Source: Synechococcales cyanobacterium GL140_1_metabat_312
GTDB lineage: Bacteria; Cyanobacteriota; Cyanobacteriia; Leptolyngbyales; Leptolyngbyaceae
NCBI GenBank assembly: GCA_025351345.1
Contig: JANXWB010000005.1
Span: 1 to 64,000 of the forward strand
Length of the DNA stretch: 64,000 bases
Direction of reading: 5' to 3'
Shown: positions 5,888-56,662 of the stretch, piece after piece
How the letters are laid out: each line of letters begins with the position of its first letter
Position numbering within the stretch: position 1 is the stretch's first letter
Notes under the pieces: generated by a model
What the model saw: only the letters and a program-made list of their open reading frames with translations
What the model was told of the DNA's origin: nothing
The model's database searches: none
Made by a program: the position numbers and the translations under genes

Positions 5888-7258
5888 TTACAAGGTAAAT
5901 TCTGCGAACTCATCAGAAACCTTTTCGGATTTCTCCGATCGAGCTGTCACAGTCGGCTTTTGCTGAAGTACCGCATCAATGGACATAGTGGGATTCTGAT
6001 GCAATACATTCAATACACCCGTAAAGTCACGAACTAATTCCCCAGGTGTCAGTAATGAAGCCGCCCCCGCAGGGCCACCAATACGCGATCGCATGACTTG
6101 TAATACAGTTTCTAAATCTGCTAGTGCTAATGGAGATTCATATTCATAATGACATTGATGAATATTACTCAATCGCTCCATTAATCCCAACAAACTCTCA
6201 TCACTCAATGGCTCTAACCGCACCACCGGAGCGATCGTATCGGTTACACCCGAGATTGAAAGCAATCGATTTTGCTGGGTACGGCGCTGCCATGCGGGAT
6301 CACTAAATAATCCACGACGAGGATCTTCCAGAAATTGCGGTGTTCCCCCAATAAAAATTCCAAGACTACTCACTCGTCCTTGTAAGGTATCGTTGAACAT
6401 TGCCAAAAGTTTGTCATAGTTATTTTGACGCGAAATACTAGTCGTTATTTTAGTTAAATGGATTGCTTCATCGATAATAATCAATAATCCTTTGTAGCCA
6501 ATATCTGCAATAAATTTAGCAATTAATTTAATATAGTCATACCAAGTATCATCATCAATAATCACCCGAACTCCGATCGCTTGCCTCGACTCTGTTTTAG
6601 TCGAAAACTCTCCCCGTAACCAGCGTAATACCGATTCTTTGGTGCGATCGTCGTCCGATCGATAGGCATTCCAATAGGCAATAATCACATTCGCAAATTC
6701 AAACCCATTCACTAAATCTGCGATCGTTTGAATCACCGATCGAATCTTATCTTCAACTAACCCATCAAACCCTTCATCTTGCGGTTTTTTTCCACTTTCT
6801 TCGGCAACCTGCGATTGAATCCCTGCAATCCACCGTTCTAAAATAATCGACAATGCGCCACCATCGGGACGGCTTTTAGTAGCCAAATTATGCAACAGCT
6901 CCCGATAGGTTGCCCGTGCTTCACCATTTGATCCAGCCAATCGTCGTTCTGGCGTAATATCTGCGTCGGCCACTACAAATCCTTGGTCCATTGCCAGCGA
7001 TCGAATGGATTGTAGTAAAAAACTTTTCCCCGCGCCATAACGACCAATCACCAATCGAAACGCCGCTCCGCCGTCTGCAATATTGTTCAAATCTTGTTGC
7101 AAGGTCGCGAGTTCAGCATCACGGCCTACAGTCAAATGCTCCACACCCACACGCGGCACAACACCGGAGGCGAGAGAATTGAGGAGTGCTGTGGAAATAC
7201 GTTTGGGAAGCTTTGATTTTTTGGGTACGATCGCGATCAAGGGTAGGGATCCTCTCAA
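5888..7258 (-). CDS. DUF2791 (BrxC/BrxD-like) P-loop ATPase
   Basis: This 456-residue AAA-type ATPase begins with LTVGRDAELATLQQDL, has Walker A GRYGAGKS at about residues 72-79 and a Walker B GLLIIIDEA near 260, followed by a sensor-like IFIGGTPQFLEDPRRGLF. That order is characteristic of the DUF2791 family, whose members include the BREX phage-defence proteins BrxC and BrxD and ATPases paired with helicases or TerB-domain proteins. None of those partners (BrxL, PglZ, helicase, methyltransferase) is visible next to it; the flanks are a rhodanese and a transporter. The gene contains a full GCGATCGC site, so it looks long resident. It is either a stand-alone family member or a leftover of a larger system. 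Confidence 0.8.
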   Translation of the reverse strand: MRGSLPLIAIVPKKSKLPKRISTALLNSLASGVVPRVGVEHLTVGRDAELATLQQDLNNIADGGAAFRLVIGRYGAGKSFLLQSIRSLAMDQGFVVADADITPERRLAGSNGEARATYRELLHNLATKSRPDGGALSIILERWIAGIQSQVAEESGKKPQDEGFDGLVEDKIRSVIQTIADLVNGFEFANVIIAYWNAYRSDDDRTKESVLRWLRGEFSTKTESRQAIGVRVIIDDDTWYDYIKLIAKFIADIGYKGLLIIIDEAIHLTKITTSISRQNNYDKLLAMFNDTLQGRVSSLGIFIGGTPQFLEDPRRGLFSDPAWQRRTQQNRLLSISGVTDTIAPVVRLEPLSDESLLGLMERLSNIHQCHYEYESPLALADLETVLQVMRSRIGGPAGAASLLTPGELVRDFTGVLNVLHQNPTMSIDAVLQQKPTVTARSEKSEKVSDEFAEFTL

Positions 7259-22793: not shown

Positions 22794-23636
22794 TTATTCC
22801 TTGAATCCTCCAGAGCAGTACCAAATATTACTAGCAAGTGCTTTATACATAGCTGTTTGCCAAGAATTTAAATATGCTGATTCACGACTTTTCGCCTGTT
22901 CACTGAGATGATCACTGACCCCTTTATAGCCCGTTCTAGATAAAAGATCAGAAAGATATCCTTGAATATTGATAATTTCTGTTGCGGCATGTGATGTGTA
23001 AAGACCTGAAAGCTTGAAGATTTTGAAATAATTTTTAACACGATTAAACTTCACAATATCCCAACTATCAGGTGATTGTACAAAAAATTTAAGAGCAGGT
23101 GGAGATCCCTCACAAACTTCCGCATAAAGCCATAAATCAGTTTCAATATCATCAAAATATGGATGAATCGTCTCTTGTTCTGCGCAGGCTGGAATTGAAT
23201 TCATCTTTATCTTGTTACAATCTGAGCAAGCAGGAATTAAATTAGTTGGAACAACAGCGAGTTCTGGATATTCAGACTTAGGTAGATGATGATCTAGTGT
23301 TGTTACTATGCGCTGTCCACACAAAGGACAGCGACCATGTACAGGTAGATTTAACAACTTCTCATAGATTGATCGACCTGGGGCGTCTTTCTTGACCATT
23401 CTATTGGTATATATGTCTAACAACTCTTGCTTTGTAACTATCTTGTCAAGATCAATTCTTGGCTTAATTGTATGAACCATATTTTTTGAAGCCGCTGTCT
23501 CAAATTCATTAGCAGCATTCACTATGGTTGTCTCAATTGAAGTTAGACGAGACTTTAATTCAATATCTTTAACACGACTAATACAGGTAAGAAATACTAA
23601 TCCAGGATCATCAAGAGGCTTTTCTAATTTTCGCAT
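22794..23636 (-). CDS. HNH endonuclease, PtuB-like effector of a Septu-type defence module
   Basis: A 280-residue protein with a central HNH/ββα-metal domain: zinc ligands Cys103/Cys106 (RCPLCGQR) and Cys137/Cys140 (ACSDCNK), and the catalytic DHH at 115-117 followed by LPKSEYPELAVVPTNLIP. The N- and C-terminal helical regions are unrecognised. It is the second gene of an operon, 11 bases after an ABC-type ATPase gene, the arrangement of Septu (PtuA + PtuB), where the HNH protein is the nuclease that acts when phage infection releases ATPase control. No GCGATCGC octamer lies in either gene, unlike their neighbours, which suggests acquisition by transfer. No reverse transcriptase is nearby, so it is not a retron-linked PtuAB. 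Confidence 0.8.
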   Translation of the reverse strand: MRKLEKPLDDPGLVFLTCISRVKDIELKSRLTSIETTIVNAANEFETAASKNMVHTIKPRIDLDKIVTKQELLDIYTNRMVKKDAPGRSIYEKLLNLPVHGRCPLCGQRIVTTLDHHLPKSEYPELAVVPTNLIPACSDCNKIKMNSIPACAEQETIHPYFDDIETDLWLYAEVCEGSPPALKFFVQSPDSWDIVKFNRVKNYFKIFKLSGLYTSHAATEIINIQGYLSDLLSRTGYKGVSDHLSEQAKSRESAYLNSWQTAMYKALASNIWYCSGGFKE

Positions 23637-23647
23637 AGTGCATAGTA

Positions 23648-25012
23648 TTATATATTTTCTTCAGAATCACGCTCTATGATCAATCCACGCAAAATAGCAC
23701 GCGCTTCAGCCCCAAGCTGATTATCAAATCTATTGCATGTAGATATAAAATCTTCTCCTCGTTCCACAGCAGCCTGAAGTAACCTATGGAACCCAGAGTA
23801 GGTTACTTCTAATCCAAATATCTCACGGGTTAAGACACCAGCATTTTCACCAAAAGTTTCTATCTCAGGTCTTTCAACTATAGCTTCAGAACCAGTACGA
23901 CGTAACTTCCATGCACAACTTTTAGGCACTTCCTGTAGAACGACGGGTGAGTGAGTTGCTATGATTGCAACTCCATTTCGATATATTAAAAGATCAGAAA
24001 GTGCTCGGATAAAAGCTGAAAGAAGTGGTGGATGAAGATGGGCTTCTGGTTCGTCAAGCAAGACTAATGTTCGTTCTTCGACAGTTTCCACTAACCGTGT
24101 CATTGTTAAAAGAACAATTTTGTGTCCAGAACTAAGTTTCTTAAAAAGTTTAAGCGCTTTATCTTCAGATAACTCATTTCTAATGTCATCAACTAGGGAT
24201 GATACCTCTGTCTCTTTAAAAACTGGATCTGCCTCCAGCATTTCCAGAGATCTTCTCCAACGAAGCACTCTATCAGTTCGTTTACAAGTACGTATGCTTT
24301 TAACAAAATCCACCGCTAAGCCATCAGGAGTATTCGGTACAGGATTATTATTTGCTTCTTCACCACCATTTTTTGCAGCCTTTAATCCTATATAAGAGTA
24401 CCGAATACCAATTGATTCATCCAGTTTTTCACTTGGCGGGTCAAAATCGTCGAACGCACTGAAAGTAACAGAAACTAAATTTGCAAAAATCCCAGCATTA
24501 TCAATCATTTCTTGTGAAGTAAACATCCCAACTTCATTTGAAGATGTCATCTTTCCTATTAAAGAACGTGTTATGTATTGGAGAATACGAGTTTTGCCAA
24601 CACCATTTCTACCAATTAAAACATGGATATTAGTGGGAGGGTTGGATTCTGGCTCAACCTCAAAGTCGAGAACAATCGAAGACTCATTTTCACGGTGAAT
24701 TGGAGCTTGGTAGGAAAAGGAATAACGAGAGAGTCGAGATCCACCCTCTACTAAGCGTCGAAATTGTCCGCGTACTGAAACTGGATCAACATTTCTTAAC
24801 AGCGATATCTTAGTGACTCGTTCATTGAGACATTTATCGAATAGTGAAATATCTGCTACGACATCTCTCAAGCCAACTAGTAGTTTATCTTTTATCGAGG
24901 AACTGAGTCCTTTGACTGTCTCATAGTAACTGTCTGCTTGCCCGAGGGAAAAGAAATTATTATCCAATGCCTCAAATTCATTAGGAATTTTAGGAGTACG
25001 TTGTTTAGTCAT
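23648..25012 (-). CDS. ABC/SMC-like ATPase, PtuA-like sensor of a Septu-type defence module
   Basis: This 454-residue ATPase of the AAA_15/AAA_21 group has Walker A GRNGVGKT (134-141), an ABC-type signature LSSGHK (293-298), Walker B LVLLDEPEAHLHPP (317-329) and H-loop ATHSP (352-356). The 130-residue N-terminal extension (NFFSLGQADSYYETVKGLSS) and the C-terminal helical part are not catalytic and probably mediate assembly with the nuclease. Together with the downstream HNH gene it forms a candidate Septu system; alternatives are other ATPase-nuclease pairs such as OLD/PARIS types, but the HNH partner argues for Septu. Transcribed first in the operon. Confidence 0.8.
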   Translation of the reverse strand: MTKQRTPKIPNEFEALDNNFFSLGQADSYYETVKGLSSSIKDKLLVGLRDVVADISLFDKCLNERVTKISLLRNVDPVSVRGQFRRLVEGGSRLSRYSFSYQAPIHRENESSIVLDFEVEPESNPPTNIHVLIGRNGVGKTRILQYITRSLIGKMTSSNEVGMFTSQEMIDNAGIFANLVSVTFSAFDDFDPPSEKLDESIGIRYSYIGLKAAKNGGEEANNNPVPNTPDGLAVDFVKSIRTCKRTDRVLRWRRSLEMLEADPVFKETEVSSLVDDIRNELSEDKALKLFKKLSSGHKIVLLTMTRLVETVEERTLVLLDEPEAHLHPPLLSAFIRALSDLLIYRNGVAIIATHSPVVLQEVPKSCAWKLRRTGSEAIVERPEIETFGENAGVLTREIFGLEVTYSGFHRLLQAAVERGEDFISTCNRFDNQLGAEARAILRGLIIERDSEENI

Positions 25013-43005: not shown

Positions 43006-43112
43006 GTCAGTAAAATTATGATTTGGGAGATTTAACCTCTAAAATCATGATTCTGAACACAGGAATAGATTATGATACAGGCTACAAAATCCTTAGCACC
43101 ATAGCAGGGACA

Positions 43113-44504
43113 ATGCTGATTCAATTCACCATTCAGAATTTTATATCTTTCAAAGATGAGACGACCTTCACTATGTTGGGGGTTGAAGGAGACCAGCAAC
43201 ATTTGGATCATCTGGCTCAGGATAGCGCAGGGAAAGGACGTTCTGTTTTGCCTGTAGCCGCCATCTATGGAGCAAATGCCGCAGGGAAATCGAATCTGAT
43301 CAAGGCACTAGAGTTCGCCCAGAGAATCGTAGTCAAAGGAACTCGAAGTAATACACTTATACCTATCTCACCGTTTAAATTATCCTCTCAGGAGAATCGA
43401 TCGAGTAAGTTCGAGTTTATTTTTACCTATCAGGGTTCACAATATTCCTATGGCTTTGAGCTAAATAAAGAGCAAATCCTCCAAGAATGGCTTTATGGTA
43501 TTCCGATCGGGAAGAAACGAGAGATTCTGTATTTTGAACGCATGACATCATCCCAGAAAGAGACAACCGTTGAATTTGGCTCTATTCTGAAAGGGAGAAG
43601 TGAGAAGCGTCAAAAATTTTTAGAATTTCTTACAGAAGGAACTCGTCCAAACCAACTGTTTTTGACGGAGGCAGTCGATCGAAATGTTCAGGAGCTAATG
43701 CCTATTCTTGAATGGTTTAAATTTGTACTGACGATTATTCCTGCCGATGCTAATTACAAAGGATTGGTGTTAGACATCCTGAGTGATGAGTCTTTCACAG
43801 AGTTTTTGAGCGAGTTCCTCAAATTCTCGGGAACAGGCATTGATTCAATTTCAACCGAAAAAATTGAATTTGATCCCGATCGTCATCTTCCAGGAGTTCC
43901 AAAGTCATTAAGAGAAGATTTTATTCAGGAAATCTCTGAGACTAAAAAGAATTCAGTGACAATGATTGAAGATGTCGTCAGAGGAGGACAGACGCTACTG
44001 TACAAAAATGATGATAATCAAATGACGTTATTTCAGCTCAAAACACAACATCGTGATTTAGTCGGAAACGTGATTGATTTTTCAATTGAAGAAGAATCAG
44101 AGGGTACTCAACGTTTAATTCATTTAATTCCAGCGCTGTTTGCCTTGAAACAAGACTCCGAAAAAGTAATTTTCTTAGATGAACTCGATCGACGACTTCA
44201 TCCACTCCTTTCTCGGGTTTTCTTAAAAAAAGCGATCGACTGTCGAAATCCCAAAAATCAATTAATCTTCACAACGCATGATACTCATTTATTAGATTTA
44301 GATCTTCTTCGGCGCGATGAAATCTGGTTTGTCGAAAAAGATGAACATGGATCTTCAACATGTTACTCTCTGGCTGAGTTCAAAATTAGACCGGATCTCA
44401 AGATTGAAAAAGGATATTTAAATGGACGGTTTGGTTCGATTCCATTCTTTGGAAATCCACAAAACTTAGGATGGATTGATTCTGAAACACCTTTATCAGT
44501 TTGA
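43113..44504 (+). CDS. RloA-like AAA ATPase (AbiL/RloAB defence pair)
   Basis: A 463-residue ATPase of the AAA_15/AAA_21 group: MLIQFTIQNFISFKDETTFT at the start, Walker A GANAAGKS (53-60), an EEESEGTQRLIHLIPALF signature helix near 350 and Walker B VIFLDELDRRLHPLLSRVF near 375, then H-loop FTTHDTHLL. This is the RloA layout, and an RloB gene follows after 12 bases. Such pairs are counted with abortive-infection systems (AbiL) in which the ATPase restrains or activates the partner. ATG 43113 is preferred to 43023, whose extra 30 residues precede the family start. The gene sits inside an ABC efflux operon on the same strand. Confidence 0.8.
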   Translation: MLIQFTIQNFISFKDETTFTMLGVEGDQQHLDHLAQDSAGKGRSVLPVAAIYGANAAGKSNLIKALEFAQRIVVKGTRSNTLIPISPFKLSSQENRSSKFEFIFTYQGSQYSYGFELNKEQILQEWLYGIPIGKKREILYFERMTSSQKETTVEFGSILKGRSEKRQKFLEFLTEGTRPNQLFLTEAVDRNVQELMPILEWFKFVLTIIPADANYKGLVLDILSDESFTEFLSEFLKFSGTGIDSISTEKIEFDPDRHLPGVPKSLREDFIQEISETKKNSVTMIEDVVRGGQTLLYKNDDNQMTLFQLKTQHRDLVGNVIDFSIEEESEGTQRLIHLIPALFALKQDSEKVIFLDELDRRLHPLLSRVFLKKAIDCRNPKNQLIFTTHDTHLLDLDLLRRDEIWFVEKDEHGSSTCYSLAEFKIRPDLKIEKGYLNGRFGSIPFFGNPQNLGWIDSETPLSV

Positions 44505-44516
44505 TTTTATAAAGCT

Positions 44517-45116
44517 ATGGGAAGAATTAATCGGACAAAATTACTCGATCGTCAGCATGATAGAAGAAATGCCAAGCTCTTTATCATCGCAACAGAAGGT
44601 CGGCACACGGAAAGTCAATACTTTCATACTTTCCATAGTACAAAGATTAAGGTAGAAGTTTTGTCCACAGGAGAAGATTGTAGATCTGCGCCCCAATATG
44701 TTCTCGATCGCCTCAACGAATTCAAGGAAAGGTATGATTTAGGCGCAGAAGATGAGCTTTGGCTAGTTACTGATGTCGATCGTTGGGGCAGAGATAATCT
44801 GAGTTCAGTCTGTCGAGAAGCGAAGCAAAAAGATTATGGTTTAGCCATCAGTAATCCTTGTTTTGAAGTTTGGCTATGCTTGCATTTACAAGATTTAGAT
44901 CCAAACGATAAAACTTCTCAACAATTCAAATCTCGACTCCGTGAAATTTTAGGAAGCTATAACGCAAGTAACTTAGATTTAGAGAAATTTAAACATAAAA
45001 TCAACGAGGCCATGGCGCGATCGAAAAGCTTACATCAAGAATCTCAGCAGCATTGGCCAAATCAAATCGGAACCCATGTCCATCAATTAGTTGAGAGTAT
45101 TCTGAATAATTTATAA
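44517..45116 (+). CDS. RloB-family effector (AbiL/RloAB defence pair)
   Basis: A 199-residue protein of the RloB family. Conserved positions: the ATEGRHTESQYF block (Glu27, Thr31, Glu32), the acidic pair in LVTDVDRWG (Asp86, Asp88) and SNPCFEVWLCLHL (112-124). The early Glu and later D-x-D recall a TOPRIM-like metal site, which would make it a nuclease, but this is inference. It follows the RloA-like ATPase by 12 bases and precedes the second efflux permease by 21 bases. It would be the toxic or nucleic-acid-acting half of the pair. Confidence 0.82.
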   Translation: MGRINRTKLLDRQHDRRNAKLFIIATEGRHTESQYFHTFHSTKIKVEVLSTGEDCRSAPQYVLDRLNEFKERYDLGAEDELWLVTDVDRWGRDNLSSVCREAKQKDYGLAISNPCFEVWLCLHLQDLDPNDKTSQQFKSRLREILGSYNASNLDLEKFKHKINEAMARSKSLHQESQQHWPNQIGTHVHQLVESILNNL

Positions 45117-46600: not shown

Positions 46601-46684
46601 TTACGAGGCCATGTTAAGACTAGAATTAGGATAGAACCCATTCGATATTTTAGTGTAGGGTAAAAAAATGTAATAAACACTCCT

Positions 46685-47549
46685 ATGGTCTATTCCAGCA
46701 GTCCAACCGATAAAGAATGGGAACTCCTTGAGCCACTTCTGTCGGAAGTGTTGCCCCCTAAAAAGCAAACAAGACCTCCGGCTTGGAGCAAACGAGAACT
46801 TCTAGATGGAGTTTTATACCAGCTGAAAAATGGCTGTAACTGGCAAGACTTACCCAAAAACTTACCGCCCTATTAAACCGTCTATTGGCACTACAAACAA
46901 TGGCGAGCAGCTGGCTCGATTGAAAAACTCATGACGCTTCTTCATGAGGACGTTCGCGAACAGGTTAAAAAAAAGAAAATGGACCACTTTAATGATCGTT
47001 GACTCGCAAGCTGTCAAAAATAGTTGTAATGCGAGTATTGAATCGAAAGGCTTTTGTCGATACAAGGCAACCAATGGGATTAAAAGGCACCTAGCGGTTG
47101 ATACGCTTGGGTTTCCATTCTTTACTCATTGCACTCCAGCAGATCTATCTGATGACGTTGGACTGCTAGAAATGGTTGGGAATAATATTGAATATTTCAA
47201 ATCAAAGCCTATCAATATTCCAAAGATTACAACGTTGTTAGACCGTGGATACCCTATTGATTCTTTGGTAAAAGGACTACAGAAAGTGTATCCTCAAATC
47301 ATGAAAAAAATCAGATTTCAGCTATCGAAGAAGCCATCAAAACAGGAGAAAAAAGAACAGGGAAAGTCAGGATTTATCCCAGTAATTGCCCGTTAGGTGG
47401 TTGAACGGTCGAATGCATGGATGGAACGCTGTAAGATATTAGTGAAGAACCATGAAAGAACATTAGGAAATGCGACGACAAAAATGAATCTCTGTTTTGT
47501 TAGGCTAATGATAAAGCGGCTTTTAGTCTCTCATCTAGATGTCAAATAG
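46685..47549 (+). pseudogene. IS5-family transposase with three inactivating mutations
   Basis: An almost complete IS5-family (IS427/IS1031-like) transposase: MVYSSSPTDKEWELLEPLLS at the start, GCNWQDLPKNLPPY, TLMIVDSQAVKNSCNAS with the first catalytic Asp, ITTLLDRGYPIDSLVKGL, and ERSNAWMERCKILVKNHERT near the end. It is broken by an in-frame TAA at about 46874-46876, a one-base shift in an A-rich run near 46970-46980 and a TAG replacing the Trp codon of RWVVERSN near 47395. It is a different element from the one at 46330-46600. Confidence 0.85.
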
Positions 47550-47587
47550 CTTCTATACTAAAAACATTCTGTTTATTACTCAGCACC

Positions 47588-50690: not shown

Positions 50691-51515
50691 TATTAATTGC
50701 GGTATTTGGGTAGGGATTCAGTATCTTACATAATACAATTACTTTCCATTGAGAATAAATAAAAATCAGAGTGTTTTATTAGAGCATTTTAGGAACATCA
50801 AGAGTCCCTTAGAGATTGTTCCTACATGAGTTACTGAATTTGTGACAACTGTGGTGGAGCGAAATAAAAATGGTGATACACCTAAACGCGATCGCCTTCA
50901 CGAGAATGGACTACTCAAAACAGCAACTCCTAACCTGTATGAAGATTAGGGGTTGCCTTGGCATGAAGTACTTAGAGCGAGCTATGAACTTGCCAGAATT
51001 GATAGTGCGATCGCCCATATATATTTCTATTGTCTAGACTTAAGAATTCCCCTTATATTTGGTTCTCCTATATATTTGCTTCTATTGAGCAGAAGGAAAA
51101 TTTCTATACTAAAACAATCAACAATAATTAGTTTGGTGCAATCCTCTCAATCCTCTAGCGGCAGAACGAGGTAAGTTATCGATCGTAGCGACATAGCAAT
51201 TCATCTTGCCAGAATGTTGTGGTTTGAAACCGATCGTCTTCAAGTTAATGATCCTATAGCATCTTAGCTTCAGACCTATAAAACAGCAGGTCAACAAAAG
51301 ATTCTTCTCTACCACGATCAATCGATATTAGCGGTCGATCAATTCCACACCACGGTCCAATAGAAAGTCTCGGGTGTGAATCACCAAAGCAAATTCCAAA
51401 ACCTGTTCTTGCGTATTGTCGGCCAGAGTCAAAAATTCTAGATTATGGGGATCACAAGTTGCTGCGCTAGATCAGACTAGATTGCGGGGAGTTTAGCGAG
51501 CTAAAGATAAATTTA
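50691..51515. other. Long non-coding or decayed region upstream of parAB
   Basis: About 825 bases with no intact gene. Two hairpins stand out: TAGGAACA/TGTTCCTA around 50789-50824, and an 11-pair stem GCAACTCCTAA/TTAGGGGTTGC at 50922-50956. On the minus strand, from about 51475 to 51330, the frame CDPHNLEFLTLADNTQEQVL then EFALVIHTRDFLLDRGVELI reads like protein and ends at TAA; it resumes as YRLIVVEKN. This may be a decayed gene of unknown family. Confidence 0.4.
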
Positions 51516-51547
51516 AGGCTTGTGTAGTAACGTTAGTACACAAGCCT
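51516..51547. promoter_or_regulatory. Candidate parS/operator palindrome 1
   Basis: A 32-bp palindrome with one mismatched pair: AGGCTTGTGTAGTAAC, then the reverse complement with a single change. It shares the core TGTGTAGTAACGTTA with a second palindrome 142 bases downstream. Located upstream of parA, it is a candidate ParB binding site (centromere) or autoregulatory operator. Confidence 0.65.
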
Positions 51548-51662
51548 AGGATAAAAATTTTAATATTTTTTGCACTCTCGAATTTCTATAAAATATTTAT
51601 CAATTAACTCTCGTGTGGGACTCTTTAGGCAATCGACTCCAAGCTGTATTTAAGCTTCAACT

Positions 51663-51684
51663 TGTGTAGTAACGTTACTACACA
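51663..51684. promoter_or_regulatory. Candidate parS/operator palindrome 2
   Basis: A perfect 22-bp palindrome whose left half is TGTGTAGTAAC. It lies 37 bases before the parA start codon and repeats the core of the upstream palindrome, including the CTTG preceding it. Binding here by ParB or ParA would repress the operon. Confidence 0.65.
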
Positions 51685-51720
51685 TTCGATTATGAGATTT
51701 TCTCTACAAATTTTAGAAGA

Positions 51721-52584
51721 ATGACAAAAACAGGACGCTCTCAAATTCGGTTGATGATTGCCAGTAATGCAGGTGGATCTGGTAAGACAACAACAGCAGT
51801 TCATTTAGCCTATGGTCTTGGAAAAGCAGGCTATCGAGTCACATTGATTGAACTTGACCATAATGGATCTCTCAGCACTTTTACAGGACTTCCACCGACA
51901 CCGGACGCTGAAGATACGCTGCTCAAGGTTTGGAAATCCGACTTTAAGGGACAGTACCCTCTTCAGTCGATCTGGGCTGATCATGTTGAAGGTGTGGATG
52001 CCATTCAAGGTGGGAAGCCCTTGCAAACCATGATTCGAGAGATTCCCAGTCGAGGTCGAGGCTTCTATATCCTGCAAGATCGTTTATTAGAGGACTATCC
52101 TCTCGATTCAGATGTCATTATTTTTGATACTCCAGCTACATTGGAGCCGATCGGAGTGATGGCTCTAGTTGCAAGCACTCATGTTCTGTGTCCTATTAAG
52201 CCCGAGCAGAAAGATGCTGAAATGCTCTTTGGGTTATTGGAATGGTATTACTCAACAATCAGTGAATTTAAGCTGCGTCCTAAGCCAGAGATTATCGGAT
52301 TTGTGCCCCCTAGAGTTGATCCAAAAAAGGCAACACATCGAAAAATTTTAGGGATTGATGAAAAAGGAATTCCCTTAGACGGAATAGATGTGAGTGATAC
52401 TCTCCCTGCGTTAATTCAAGAAGCCGGGATTCATTGCTTTCCGATCGTTAGAGATTCTAATTATTATCTGACGGCCACCACTGCTCGGCTTCCTCTTCCG
52501 TTATTTCGTCCAAGTGCATCAGGTGCTCAGGATTATGACCCGATTGTTGAAGCTGTTATTAATTTAATTAAAGGTGAATTCTAA
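51721..52584 (+). CDS. parA: ParA-like partition ATPase with altered Walker A
   Basis: A 287-residue MinD/ParA-type ATPase. The P-loop reads NAGGSGKTTTAVHLA (residues 16-30); the signature lysine that normally precedes GG (KGGxGKT) is replaced by Ala, and the second motif reads LIELDHNGSLS instead of DxDPQG. Walker B-like VIIFDTPATLEP is present near 138. These changes could alter dimerisation-dependent ATP hydrolysis. ATG 51721 follows a weak AGAAGA site. The TAA stop overlaps the ATG of parB, so the two are coupled. It is a plasmid-type partition system found here among chromosomal genes. Confidence 0.85.
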   Translation: MTKTGRSQIRLMIASNAGGSGKTTTAVHLAYGLGKAGYRVTLIELDHNGSLSTFTGLPPTPDAEDTLLKVWKSDFKGQYPLQSIWADHVEGVDAIQGGKPLQTMIREIPSRGRGFYILQDRLLEDYPLDSDVIIFDTPATLEPIGVMALVASTHVLCPIKPEQKDAEMLFGLLEWYYSTISEFKLRPKPEIIGFVPPRVDPKKATHRKILGIDEKGIPLDGIDVSDTLPALIQEAGIHCFPIVRDSNYYLTATTARLPLPLFRPSASGAQDYDPIVEAVINLIKGEF

Positions 52585-53759
52585 TGGTTAAGACAGGTAC
52601 TACAGGACTGAGAGATCGTCTAGCCGGAGTGCAAGTTTCTCAAGAAGTGCATAATCTCAAAGAAGAAATCGTGATTTTGCAGGCTGAGCTAAGAGCGTTG
52701 CGATCGGGAGAGCTTTCTTCTGATGAGGAAACCCGCCTTAATGAAGAAGTACAGCAACTAACGACTGAATTAGGTAATCTTAGTGGTAAGCATAAGGTCA
52801 GTCTCAACACAGTAGATCTGGATATCAATCAACCGCGAGAAACAATTACAGACAGTATGATTACTGAGCGGGCGAATAGTTTGCGACGGCATGGACAGTT
52901 AACACCCATCATCGTTATTCCACAGATGGATGGTCGATACCTGTTATTTGAAGGAGAACTACGCACTAGAGCTGCCCGATCGCTTGGATGGACGGAACTG
53001 GACGCTGTTTTTCTCGCGATCGAGGACTTACCATCTCCGGAAGAGACCTTTCGGGGTCAAGTGGTTACCAGTATCCATTCCCAACGTTTACATGATTTAG
53101 ATATCGCCAAAGCGCTGATTCGTCTAGCGATCAGTGAATATCCAAATATGAAAGGGCAAGAAAGTATTATTCCCAACTTTCTGAATACTCCTATTCGCCG
53201 GATGCAGCGCGATAATGCTCTCTCTCAATTAGCTGATATTCGGATTGCCGATGCTGAAACACAAAAACGATGGGTGGAAGATATTGGATTTAAGGCGATG
53301 GAAGAGCGTCAAATTTTTGAACTTATTTTAGGATTACAGCTTAATCCAGTTACAGTGAATACTAATATTTTTCCACTGTTAAAACTGACGGATGATTTGA
53401 AAGAAGCGATTCAGACCCTGGGATTGGAATCTAGTAAGTCGAGAGAACTTAATCGTCTTAACCCTAATAATTTAAAACTGGATGAGCTAAAAGCTACAAA
53501 GATTCGTAAAAAGCTGACTCAGCAGGTTATTGAGCAGCATCTATCGTTGACTGAAGTCAAGGCTAAGGTGAATCAATTGATTCAACAGCATAATCCAAAA
53601 CAAAAGAGTCAGAAGGCTACAGTTTCCGAACAACTTATTGAGGTGCTCAAAGGGACCGATTGTTCTTTAGATAGTGCTGATGATTTAACACAACTTTTGG
53701 CTGTTCTTAATTCAAAAGTCTTAGAGATTGAAAACTTGATTAATACGGTTCAGCTTTAA
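52584..53759 (+). CDS. parB: ParB-like partition protein
   Basis: A 391-residue ParB/Spo0J-type protein: a coiled coil at 15-65, a ParB/Srx NTPase domain (VDLDINQPRETITDSMITER about 82-101, then GQLTPIIVIPQMDGRYLLFE and GELRTRAARSLGWTELDAVF), and a central helix-turn-helix section (FRGQVVTSIHSQRLHDLDIA ... LIRLAISEYPNM) before a helical C-terminal part. It should bind the palindromes upstream of parA and act with ParA in segregation or in regulating an integrated element. Its ATG overlaps the parA stop. Confidence 0.88.
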   Translation: MVKTGTTGLRDRLAGVQVSQEVHNLKEEIVILQAELRALRSGELSSDEETRLNEEVQQLTTELGNLSGKHKVSLNTVDLDINQPRETITDSMITERANSLRRHGQLTPIIVIPQMDGRYLLFEGELRTRAARSLGWTELDAVFLAIEDLPSPEETFRGQVVTSIHSQRLHDLDIAKALIRLAISEYPNMKGQESIIPNFLNTPIRRMQRDNALSQLADIRIADAETQKRWVEDIGFKAMEERQIFELILGLQLNPVTVNTNIFPLLKLTDDLKEAIQTLGLESSKSRELNRLNPNNLKLDELKATKIRKKLTQQVIEQHLSLTEVKAKVNQLIQQHNPKQKSQKATVSEQLIEVLKGTDCSLDSADDLTQLLAVLNSKVLEIENLINTVQL

Positions 53760-54012
53760 TAGTAAAGGGTTGGTTTAGAAATAATTGCTGAGTTGACGGG
53801 CCTAACGATCGGCCTACTTCAGATTCATTAAGTTCTAAGCTTTTCGTTCTAATCTATTCGACTATTGTCTATCCTAATCTAGATAAGACTTGCCTACTTC
53901 ATGATCTCATTTGTGTCAATTAACCTCGGCGATCGAGATGATGAGAATCAGATATTCTGGTGATTTATAATCATATCTCTATAAAATCGCCAATTCAGTT
54001 GTAAGCATAAAA

Positions 54013-54675
54013 ATGACTTCGTTAATCTACCAATTTCTGATCATTGAAGATCACCCTGAAGTTAGCCAAAATAACTGTGAATTCTTACGGATTATGGAAC
54101 CTGAGTGTGAATGCATCATAGTCGATACGCCTGAAAAAGGGATCGAGCAACTCAGACAGAATATTCCAAATTTGGTCGTGGCTGATCTACAGTTTGGGAC
54201 ATTAACAGGGGAGGCATCGGCTCAACCAGGATTAACTTTACTGAAGCAGATTTTTGAATATTATCCTGCTGTAAATGTTCTCGTATATACCAGTGAACCC
54301 ACTTATTTACGGCAAGTCCTGAAGCAAATTTTTGAACATCAGGGTGGTTTTGTTGTGGTTAATAAGATGGAACGACGCAACGCTTTTCTAGAAGGCAGTC
54401 GTAGTGCCTTAGAGGGGCAATGTCGGATTCCCCGAAATATCATGAATGAAATGCCATTAAATGATAAAGATATGCTAGTTCTAGATTTATTATGCAATCA
54501 ATCGCTGACGGACCAAGCGATCGCCGATCGGATGCATATCTCCCTCAAAACAGCTCAAAATTATGTCCAGAGTCTTAAGGTTAAACTGAATGTAGATCAA
54601 CTAGAAGGTCAGCAAGTCAATACTCGTATTGCTGTTTGTATGATTGCGATGCAGCGTCGATTAATTGGACAGTGA
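54013..54675 (+). CDS. LuxR/NarL-type response regulator
   Basis: A 220-residue response regulator. The receiver domain has acidic ELD-type ligands at FLIIEDHPEVSQ, the phosphoacceptor Asp in LVVADLQFGTLT (near 59) and the conserved Lys in VVVNKMERRNAF (near 117). The C-terminal LuxR helix-turn-helix reads VLDLLCNQSLTDQAIADRMH and ISLKTAQNYVQSLKVKLNV. The gene converges with a CHASE2 histidine kinase gene 4 bases away, which is its likely partner. Confidence 0.9.
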   Translation: MTSLIYQFLIIEDHPEVSQNNCEFLRIMEPECECIIVDTPEKGIEQLRQNIPNLVVADLQFGTLTGEASAQPGLTLLKQIFEYYPAVNVLVYTSEPTYLRQVLKQIFEHQGGFVVVNKMERRNAFLEGSRSALEGQCRIPRNIMNEMPLNDKDMLVLDLLCNQSLTDQAIADRMHISLKTAQNYVQSLKVKLNVDQLEGQQVNTRIAVCMIAMQRRLIGQ

Positions 54676-54679
54676 AGCA

Positions 54680-56662
54680 TCAAAAAGTTACGATCTCCCA
54701 TTCCAACGTAACCCGCATTCCACCAGATTCTAATGGAATACGCTCCCAGATTCCCTTAGGTAGTTCTGAGGCAATTGTCGCCATTATTTTAGTTCCATAC
54801 CCACCTTGTCCACGTTTTTTATCCTGGTCAGCCGTTGTAGATACTGTGCCGTTATTCTCAATGATTAATCGACAGGCTGTTCCTTCTTGAGATAGATAAA
54901 TTGAAACTTCAGTCGCTGTTCCATTGGGCGGTTGGGCGTGACGAATAACATTTGCGATCGCTTCTCGAAAGAATCGAAAAATATCTTCTCTTGCATCAAT
55001 CCAAGCACTATCTGATTTGGATTCTCGTAGCGGTTGTAAGTGCTGATTCACTTTTAAAGTTAGATCTCCAGAATGGCTTAGTTGTTGTATCCACTGCTGT
55101 ATTCCGATCGCTAACCCAAATTGTAATTCTGGAGTCACTTCTAGTTTTCCGGCGATCGTGCGAGTATTGCTCAATTGATTCCGTAAAGCTAATCCGATCG
55201 TTTCTAATTGATCTAAAAGCGGACCAAGATAAAGAGAAGGCTGGGTGATTTTCAGTAATTCGATTTTATCCATGACTAATTTAAGTTCTTGTAAGGGTCC
55301 ATCATGAATATCCGTTGCAACCCGATGGAGGAGCTTACGCGCTTGTAGTAAAGCGGCCTGACGTTCTGCTAATTTTTGGCGTTGTTGGGTAGACTCTCGA
55401 ATTATTGAATAAGTCCCCATCCCAATTCCCGTCCCCATCCATCCAACGATCGGGATTCCTAGTGGCAGAATTAATCCTTGTTCCAATAATACAAAATTCA
55501 GACCGCTATAGCTGCCGATCAGAGCTAAGAGCACCCAAAAATCGCCAAGAATTACAAATGTGCTTTTAGCTTTCTGGCAACGGCGTCTCACATATAATTG
55601 CATGAACAGGAGTCCTAGTATCGTAATCCAGTAATTAGAGTCCTTTACAGCTATTTTTAGAAAGGAGTGTGTCATCAAACTGGCTATCAAATTGGCTTCC
55701 ACTTCCGCGATCGACATTTCTCCGTAGGGCGTATACTCAGTATGAATCTCAGGTATCTTACTTTCAAGTAAGTCTACAATGACTAATTTGTTATGTAATT
55801 GCTGAAGTGATGATTTGTCAAATAGTCCTTGACATTCTTCAGGTTGAGGTTGAGAGGTACATTTAAATTGAAAATCAATGCTAGGAAATGTGTCTGTTGG
55901 TCCCCAAAAATTAATCTGAAATGGTGTCTGCATTCGTAGATTTTCTAGACTTTGTAAACCCGATCGATTGTCGGAGGCAGTATAGAACTTTTCCAATGCT
56001 AAGACAGCAACTGATTTTACTCTATGACTTCGGTCGGTATGAGAATCATCTTCATAGCTAAATCGACCCCAGAGATCGGCCCGTCTTGCTAGATTATTTA
56101 ATCGATGGGGATTGGGCGGACGGCGAAAATAACTGACGATTTGTTCCGGGGGGATCGCGTATTGTTGGGTATTATCATTAACGGGGAGCAAGTTATGATA
56201 GATGTTTAATGTCGATTTTCCTAATGCCATCTTATTAGGTCTTGACACTAAGACAATCTGATTAGCATACTTTCCAATTAATGCTTTTAAGGGACGCTTT
56301 AAACGATTGTCAGTATTTACATCCACATATTGCTTCATCTGTTCAGGTAGATTTAAAACAACAATTTTTGCATCATTTTCAATCAAATCTTTGACTAAAT
56401 TGGCATAAAAGAGATTGAGTTGCTGCAAATTCTGTAAATCATAATTTTTTATATCTGATGTATTAATTTTTAAGGTCAGAATCTCATGGGGTGGTGTTCC
56501 GAGATTATGCAGTCTAATTAAACTATCCTGCGTATCAAGTTCCCATTGTCGGACGATTGGTAAATTTAGCATCACGACGCAATATATCCCGCCCCAAATG
56601 ATCGTTAAGACAAGACTCACTAATTTTCGCTTAATTGTGAGTCGTAGGTTACGTCTTTTCAT
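54680..56662 (-). CDS. CHASE2-domain sensor histidine kinase (NarX/DegS type)
   Basis: A 660-residue membrane kinase. One N-terminal helix (LVSLVLTIIWGGIYCVVMLN) precedes a ~300-residue extracellular CHASE2 domain (RQWELDTQDSLIRLHNLGTP), then three membrane helices (WITILGLLFMQLYVRR; FVILGDFWVLLALIGSYSGL; LILPLGIPIVGWMGTGIGMG), the HisKA_3 phosphoacceptor box RVATDIHDGPLQELKLVMD and an HATPase with EAIANVIRHAQPPNGTATEV and KRGQGGYGTKIMATIASEL. The ligand is unknown. Convergent with the LuxR-type regulator at 54013, its presumed partner. Confidence 0.9.
   Translation of the reverse strand: MKRRNLRLTIKRKLVSLVLTIIWGGIYCVVMLNLPIVRQWELDTQDSLIRLHNLGTPPHEILTLKINTSDIKNYDLQNLQQLNLFYANLVKDLIENDAKIVVLNLPEQMKQYVDVNTDNRLKRPLKALIGKYANQIVLVSRPNKMALGKSTLNIYHNLLPVNDNTQQYAIPPEQIVSYFRRPPNPHRLNNLARRADLWGRFSYEDDSHTDRSHRVKSVAVLALEKFYTASDNRSGLQSLENLRMQTPFQINFWGPTDTFPSIDFQFKCTSQPQPEECQGLFDKSSLQQLHNKLVIVDLLESKIPEIHTEYTPYGEMSIAEVEANLIASLMTHSFLKIAVKDSNYWITILGLLFMQLYVRRRCQKAKSTFVILGDFWVLLALIGSYSGLNFVLLEQGLILPLGIPIVGWMGTGIGMGTYSIIRESTQQRQKLAERQAALLQARKLLHRVATDIHDGPLQELKLVMDKIELLKITQPSLYLGPLLDQLETIGLALRNQLSNTRTIAGKLEVTPELQFGLAIGIQQWIQQLSHSGDLTLKVNQHLQPLRESKSDSAWIDAREDIFRFFREAIANVIRHAQPPNGTATEVSIYLSQEGTACRLIIENNGTVSTTADQDKKRGQGGYGTKIMATIASELPKGIWERIPLESGGMRVTLEWEIVTF

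Follow-up and report, generated by a model that had tools for sequence, protein, structure and literature searches.

A parAB gene pair of the plasmid type lies among chromosomal-type genes in the draft genome of Synechococcales cyanobacterium GL140_1_metabat_312. Two palindromes precede it, and its ParA lacks the signature lysine of the ParA proteins. How did the pair come to be there, what are the palindromes for, and is such a ParA a working ATPase? We address these questions in a window of 64,000 nucleotides (GenBank assembly GCA_025351345.1, contig JANXWB010000005.1, positions 1 to 64,000 of the forward strand), to which the coordinates below refer unless another contig is named, and in homologous loci from elsewhere.

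A par module shared with a sister species

The locus comprises the following features:

51159..51492, minus strand: remnant of a broken YhcG-type (DUF1016) PDDEXK nuclease gene, adjoining palindrome 1; the corresponding place in the sister species G001 holds a full-length frame, divergent from parA
51495..53761, plus strand: conserved par module (sites, parA and parB), 95% identical in DNA to G001, where the neighbours differ
51516..51547, no strand: palindrome 1, putative ParB site parS-1; 32 bp, two 16-nt arms, 94% complementary, one mismatched pair
51663..51684, no strand: palindrome 2, putative ParB site parS-2; 22 bp, perfect
51721..52584, plus strand: parA, a 287-aa ParA/AAA_31 ATPase (Pfam AAA_31, E 2.5e-18) of the group without signature lysine
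51763..51792, plus strand: ParA Walker A, SNAGGSGKTT; A17 (51769-51771) in the place of the signature lysine, catalytic K22 at 51784-51786
52210..52212, plus strand: ParA K164 codon, the invariant lysine proposed to substitute for the signature lysine; its counterpart in 6non_A (McdA homologue) is residue 171
52584..53759, plus strand: parB, a 391-aa ParB (ParB_N, E 4.6e-12)
52794..53027, plus strand: ParB_N domain, residues 71-148; GELR is kept, and the ENxxR box shortly after reads TSIHS
53304..53453 (approximate), plus strand: HTH-like region of ParB, from a profile alignment with the DNA-binding part of a solved ParB

The initial annotation had read the pair as plasmid-type parAB, and this holds: an AAA_31 ParA, which also matches CbiA, is followed by a ParB_N ParB, as a Walker-type ParA ATPase is by parB in type I ParABS, and the nearest plasmid matches are cyanobacterial par loci.

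The DNA shared with G001, a species of the same genus, measures 2.27 kb, beginning shortly ahead of palindrome 1 and ending at the stop of parB; ParA is 97% and ParB 95% identical to the proteins on G001 contig C366. Compared with our genome, the rest of that contig has only the nuclease remnant and short matches to positions 2664-3022 of C366 (E 1e-8 or better). The dN/dS ratio (NG86) is 0.12 for parA and 0.14 for parB, values that come from this single sequence pair and may reflect selection during residence on a plasmid.

Ahead of its ParB_N domain, ParB has a leucine-rich stretch that looks coiled-coil-like by eye. Canonical CTP-hydrolysing ParB proteins carry two boxes, GERR and ENxxR, and the solved ParB aligned to ours shows ENLQR at the second. 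With GELR and TSIHS at these places, our protein falls outside the canonical ParB CTPases; across 93 homologous loci, the E and N of the ENxxR columns occur in 4/93 and 14/93. As the ParB has no ENxxR box, canonical CTP-dependent sliding cannot be assumed for it. A frame of at least 200 codons lies directly 3' of parA in 95 of 97 loci, its identity as ParB being established for part of them. A search for ParB in phage records returned one partial match only.

The palindromes are putative ParB sites

The two palindromes had been described as sharing a core, with given sizes and a spacing of 142 bases; coordinates and sequence prove correct in every respect. Common to both is TGTGTAGTAACGTTA, and the copies of the shared 24-mer start 142 bases apart. 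Palindrome 1 is centred 189 bases and palindrome 2 47 bases 5' of the parA ATG, the latter position being one that probably suits an additional role as operator of parAB. The perfect 22-mer is the longest perfect palindrome of the 64-kb window, and the sole other one of at least 16 bp is 16 bp long. A search for the core elsewhere in the genome, as the annotation had proposed, found the 22-mer with at most 3 mismatches at two places in the 3.85-Mb draft, both beside parA: palindromes 1 and 2 themselves. In G001, the 22-bp core is perfect at the place of palindrome 1. Both species combine a perfect core with a second one bearing a single mismatched pair, and the perfect core is at a different site in each.

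We then compared homologous loci. ParA was found by motif in 97 of 103 (missed in L063, L079, L095, L116, L118 and L030); after duplicate rows and those lacking a following frame were taken out, 93 non-identical loci remained, our own included. Within 500 bp before parA, at least one palindrome occurs in 39/93 loci against 2.0% of dinucleotide shuffles (20 per locus), at least two in 14/93 against 0%, and an AACGTT-centred palindrome in 22/93 against 0.05%. No palindrome was found in this stretch in 54/93 loci under the first rule. Under a second scoring rule, used with no shuffle comparison, 60/93 loci have one or more palindromes 5' of parA, between the two genes or shortly 3' of parB, and 33/93 have none. 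The sites are therefore not universal across the wider family. By the second rule, the density per kb is 1.75 in the 500 bp before parA, 0.18 further upstream, 0.05 in parA, 0.11 in parB, 0.36 3' of parB and 1.2 in the parA-parB gap (one site).

The arms of the palindromes vary by lineage but stay symmetric. For the AACGTT group, we counted complementary flank pairs in 17 loci and found 119 of 136, compared with a mean of 61.8 after the right halves were shuffled among loci. Pre-selection inflates this count: the 17 are what remained, once near-copies were removed, of 24 loci chosen for close relationship or for known sites, and each locus is represented by the site that scored best for complementarity. 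Palindrome type also tracks the ParB tree: the AACGTT type takes 4 changes against a shuffled mean of 13.8, with 0 of 500 as low, a clustering that near-copies also favour.

Because palindromes recur 5' of related parA genes and their type follows the ParB tree, we treat ours as putative parS, that is, probably as sites of ParB. The resemblance to a centromere or operator first noted for them is in line with both findings, and cis-acting repeated or palindromic sites near parAB, as in type I ParABS, are present. In the simplest reading of these sequences, ParB would bind the palindromes, and sites and ParB would diverge together.

Could the palindromes instead be operators and nothing else, at which ParB or another regulator represses parAB while no DNA is partitioned? 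Such a partition-derived regulator would explain well why one of our sites is centred 47 bases before the parA start and why many homologues have a palindrome 20-60 bases 5' of parA. It explains less well that some loci have 2-4 sites, reaching several hundred bases upstream, and that the ATPase residues K22, D46, D136 and K164 are unvarying in 93/93 loci. Sites also occur 3' of parB (in L049) and between parA and parB (in L035), positions that suit a centromere better than an operator alone, with the proviso that a few palindromes 3' of parB could be terminators. Altogether, we consider the operator-only reading rather unlikely. A promoter and terminator scan of the module gave fewer matches than shuffled sequence.

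The module probably lies in the chromosome

The pair had been said to lie among chromosomal genes. Indeed, its contig (C57, 71,313 bp) also carries tldD/E-like genes, dusA, speE and hpsP, all normally chromosomal. C57 is most likely chromosome, and since it bears these genes the module is probably chromosomal too. At 88-95% identity, much of 28.0-41.3 kb matches G001, spread over several of its contigs, and so does much of 56.3-62.1 kb. Between them, at 41.3-56.3 kb, what matches G001 among the scored candidates (40 of 83 and 40 of 80) is the module, the nuclease remnant and some short or multi-copy stretches, so absence from G001 is not fully established. G+C is 0.37-0.41 in 13 of 15 one-kb steps at 43-58 kb and 0.47-0.50 at 38-43 kb; other parts of the window are equally low, and the low G+C around the module is not special. 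The low G+C of 43-58 kb and the sparse G001 matches fit an accessory region, without proving one.

Genes for plasmid replication, which the annotation had suggested seeking nearby, were not recognised beside the module, nor were relaxase or RecD-like helicase genes (Pfam; genes of at least 130 aa at 43-62 kb).

A different account would make the contig plasmid or chromid DNA, or a chimera, with no chromosomal integration at all. In its favour, matches in near-complete assemblies fall on contigs of plasmid size, and, as far as the scored candidates go (40 of 83 and 40 of 80), the G001 matches at 41.3-56.3 kb amount to the module itself, the nuclease remnant and repeats that are short or multi-copy. 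Our genome is a draft of 100 contigs and 3.85 Mb, in which a contig may be chimeric. The tldD/E, dusA and speE genes speak against this account, as do the parts on both sides (28.0-41.3 and 56.3-62.1 kb) that match G001 contigs at 88-95%, and a homologue (L088) that sits in a 7.69-Mb contig of another genome. We judge it unlikely.

Several other features of the window were recorded. Upstream of the par module, at 43023-45116, an AAA_21 ATPase gene and a neighbouring RloB-like gene match the AbiLi/AbiLii models of PADLOC and form a candidate abortive-infection pair; 46632-47558 is a stretch with a DDE transposase frame and many matches over G001 contigs. On the 3' side of parB, 54013-56662 holds a gene for a LuxR-type response regulator and a convergent one for a CHASE2 histidine kinase, the only scored G001 match there being about 160 bp near the start of the kinase. 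Further off, a gene pair at 22794-25012 scores strongly as the PADLOC candidate system PDC-M01 (A and B), the protein of 23648-25012 also matching PtuA, and a BrxC/BrxD-type ATPase gene lies at 5888-7258, with SngB as its best PADLOC match.

In near-complete assemblies, homologues lie on contigs of plasmid size

Of 3444 matching records in a plasmid collection, the 40 listed as best all come from cyanobacteria, with ParA identities of 42-57% in the first 20. The downstream gene is annotated as ParB in 11 of 12 plasmid loci; in the twelfth, L008, it is a hypothetical gene with a sub-threshold ParB_N match (E 2.8e-5). At the DNA level, the module gave two partial matches to plasmids, of 68% and 72% identity, within parA.

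At E 1e-20 or better, 27 of 97 relatives (our own genome included) have a ParA homologue; at E 1e-30, so do 74 of 388 genomes in the class, the match in G235 not being among the loci compared. In the 14 matched assemblies of about 10 contigs or fewer, 19 of 19 matches fall on contigs of at most 1.21 Mb, and none of the 21 single-contig genomes among the 97 relatives has a ParA match. The L088 homologue, on its 7.69-Mb contig, means that chromosomal copies of this ParA family do occur. Searched with the single ParA protein, viral contigs gave no match and genome contigs gave one, JAPLHZ010000181.1 (a Lake Pavin MAG), which we take as the sister species; the ParA alignment found 6 distant relatives on viral contigs.

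Is the module by now the chromosome's own partition system? Three observations could be read in this way. First, at a rated completeness of 99.99%, the genome has no ParB_N match at E 0.01 or better other than our parB. Second, the canonical chromosomal parS is absent: the 16-bp site of Soj/Spo0J, with the motif TGTTTCACGTGAAACA, is a different sequence from our palindromes and has 0 matches in our genome at up to 2 mismatches. Third, dN/dS is low in both genes. A chromosomal role is opposed by the mere two sites genome-wide, both beside parA, and by contig C52, where a second ParA-like gene with signature lysine is followed by a weak ParB_N gene (E 0.013, under the curated cut-off), which means that our module may not be the only system. 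Nor is the module kept at genus level, as G002 (69% complete) has no ParA match and G003 a 37% match only; and relatives without a ParB_N match at E 1e-5 are not rare (10 of 41 searched, three of the ten being less than 90% complete and four single-contig). Co-option by the chromosome appears quite unlikely on this evidence. As for the C52 locus itself (L045, 895-3092), its ParA-like protein has an HsdR_N-like N-terminus ahead of the sub-threshold ParB_N gene, and the two are possibly a second, divergent ParA-ParB pair.

The annotation had left the choice open between an integrated plasmid, chromosomal co-option and a partition-derived regulator. Integration of a plasmid module fits best; with no replication gene recognised, the choice is only partly settled. 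We hold it likely that this is a plasmid-type ParABS module, probably in the chromosome and most likely left there by the integration of a plasmid or part of one.

An invariant lysine at position 164 of ParA

As described in an excerpt of PMC5393062, the signature lysine of ParA proteins contacts the ATP of the partner subunit across the dimer. Our ParA had been called non-canonical for having AGGSGKTTT and, in place of DxDPQ, ELDHN. Both are there: A17 stands where the lysine would be, in a Walker A that reads SNAGGSGKTTT in full, and the later motif is ELDHN. Taken as a deviation from its own kind, the claim fails. None of the 97 loci, ours included, has the signature lysine (A in 82, S in 8, T in 6, V in 1), and five of the six loci that the motif missed (all but L063) likewise lack it and have K at the column of K164. 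The annotation had conceded that an alignment with the lysine normally missing in the subfamily would weaken its case, and this is the alignment obtained, with K164 in 93/93. ELDHN is a minor variant, its aspartate present in 93/93 loci and its histidine in 4/93.

The invariant lysines of the family are two: K22 of Walker A and K164. That ParA is a degenerate pseudo-ATPase, robbed of its signature lysine as the locus decays, is very hard to credit: the residue is indeed gone from our protein, but it is gone from all 97 loci, K22 and K164 are invariant in 93/93, the reading frames are intact and parA has a dN/dS of 0.12, on which counts we rejected plain degeneration.

What might K164 do? Five solved ParA/Soj-type chains with the signature lysine (4pfs, 5if9, 8ray, 1wcv and 6iub) have Y, F or L at its column. 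In 6non, an McdA homologue without signature lysine, the column holds K, at chain residue 171; assuming a 20-residue tag, we take this residue to be McdA K151. That residue reportedly contacts ATP across the dimer, doing the job of the signature lysine, and McdA is said to belong to an unstudied subset of ParA proteins.

The two lysines exclude each other. Among the 30 best-scoring (not randomly drawn) AAA_31 proteins from relatives, 14 combine K at the 164 column with the absence of the signature lysine and 15 show the reverse, L158 being too short a frame to be read at that column. Over 68 ParA-like proteins (28 taken from the 48 of alignment A1, 29 of these 30 with L158 left out, and 11 others), 50 have K164 only, 18 the signature lysine only, 0 both and 0 neither. 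The best tree has 3 exchanges between the two states. Well-supported branches force only 1, and an independent-pairs test found one pair only on supported branches; repeated independent exchange is therefore not established. K164 probably replaces the signature lysine.

Two further sets of proteins share the trait. On viral contigs, the ParA-like proteins of L122, L123, L124 and L125 have AGGVGKT or VGGSGKS instead of a motif with the signature lysine, and K at the 164 column. A second, separate cyanobacterial ParA group (NQ[AS]GGVGK; L136, L137, L139, L143, L144 and L163) is of the same kind, and each of its six members has a ParB_N match 3' on the same strand, within about 600 bases.

Comparison with known systems

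The closest counterparts are type I ParABS loci of cyanobacterial plasmids, such as Fischerella NIES-4106 plasmid2, Nostoc pANSO36A and Leptolyngbya boryana pLBX: the gene order is the same, ParA is 48-57% identical in these three, a large ParB lies directly 3' and several have palindromes before parA. They differ in that several are flanked by genes for a RecD-like helicase, a sigma factor or parM, whereas our module is without these and on a chromosomal-type contig. Set against the definition of type I ParABS, our ParA has A17 instead of the signature lysine of the deviant Walker A (KGGxGKT); unlike type Ia ParA, it has no N-terminal HTH extension, only 14 residues preceding SNAGG.

Our protein, without the signature lysine and with K at the McdA position, is what the carboxysome-positioning McdAB systems would have as their ATPase, and the homologue 6non has its lysine at the same column. 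In the McdAB system, by contrast, the partner is a small McdB unrelated to ParB; ours has ParB_N and a ParB-type HTH region, along with DNA sites. L152 and L154 are McdA-like by motif only and fall outside our ParA family in the tree. According to excerpts of PMC6328274 and PMC8262871, type 1 McdA is a ParA-family ATPase without the signature lysine and is counted in the family despite this; an excerpt of PMC3098194 describes StbB of plasmid R388 as ParA-like, with the motif SGXXGK and, as here, no signature lysine. The loss as such is already published, for McdA and StbB. Searching the openly licensed literature, we found this plasmid ParA family described nowhere, nor its palindromes or invariant lysine; excerpts of PMC9178275, PMC12704722, PMC12506020 and PMC12204374 are cited as further literature.

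Chromosomal Soj/Spo0J resembles our pair in the short ParA without N-terminal HTH and in the ParB_N and HTH architecture. It differs in having the signature lysine, and the five solved homologues have Y, F or L where ours has K164.

Proposed mechanism and present role

We propose that ParB dimers would bind the two palindromes as parS and mark the DNA as cargo. From the palindrome beside the parA start, ParB would probably also repress parAB, giving autoregulation. ParA would bind ATP, dimerise and coat the nucleoid, and its release by ParB would let the cargo move, as in the usual ratchet. The lysine that reaches the partner's ATP across the dimer would be K164, at the McdA lysine position, and not one of the Walker A loop.

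On the chromosome, a module of this sort could be what selection has kept of an integrated plasmid; it could also interfere with related plasmids that enter the cell, or could have taken on a chromosomal role. The selected leftover is the most economical of the three; the evidence does not choose among them.

More tentatively, and with somewhat less than even confidence, we suggest that a broad class of ParA proteins, from cyanobacterial plasmids and with relatives in some viral contigs, has shifted its trans-acting lysine out of the Walker A loop to a place beyond switch II, with strict exclusion between the two lysines. In the family examined here, the ParB partners would in addition be without ENxxR and use lineage-specific palindromes of about 20-22 bp, often AACGTT-centred; one such module would have settled in the chromosome of our organism, still under selection. 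If this lysine-swapped family of plasmid partition systems is real, the McdA exception becomes a rule that a single pair of mutants can check. The variable palindromes with their matching ParB variants would be a natural set for following how partition specificity evolves, and the palindromes are candidate parS sites for stabilising cyanobacterial vectors.
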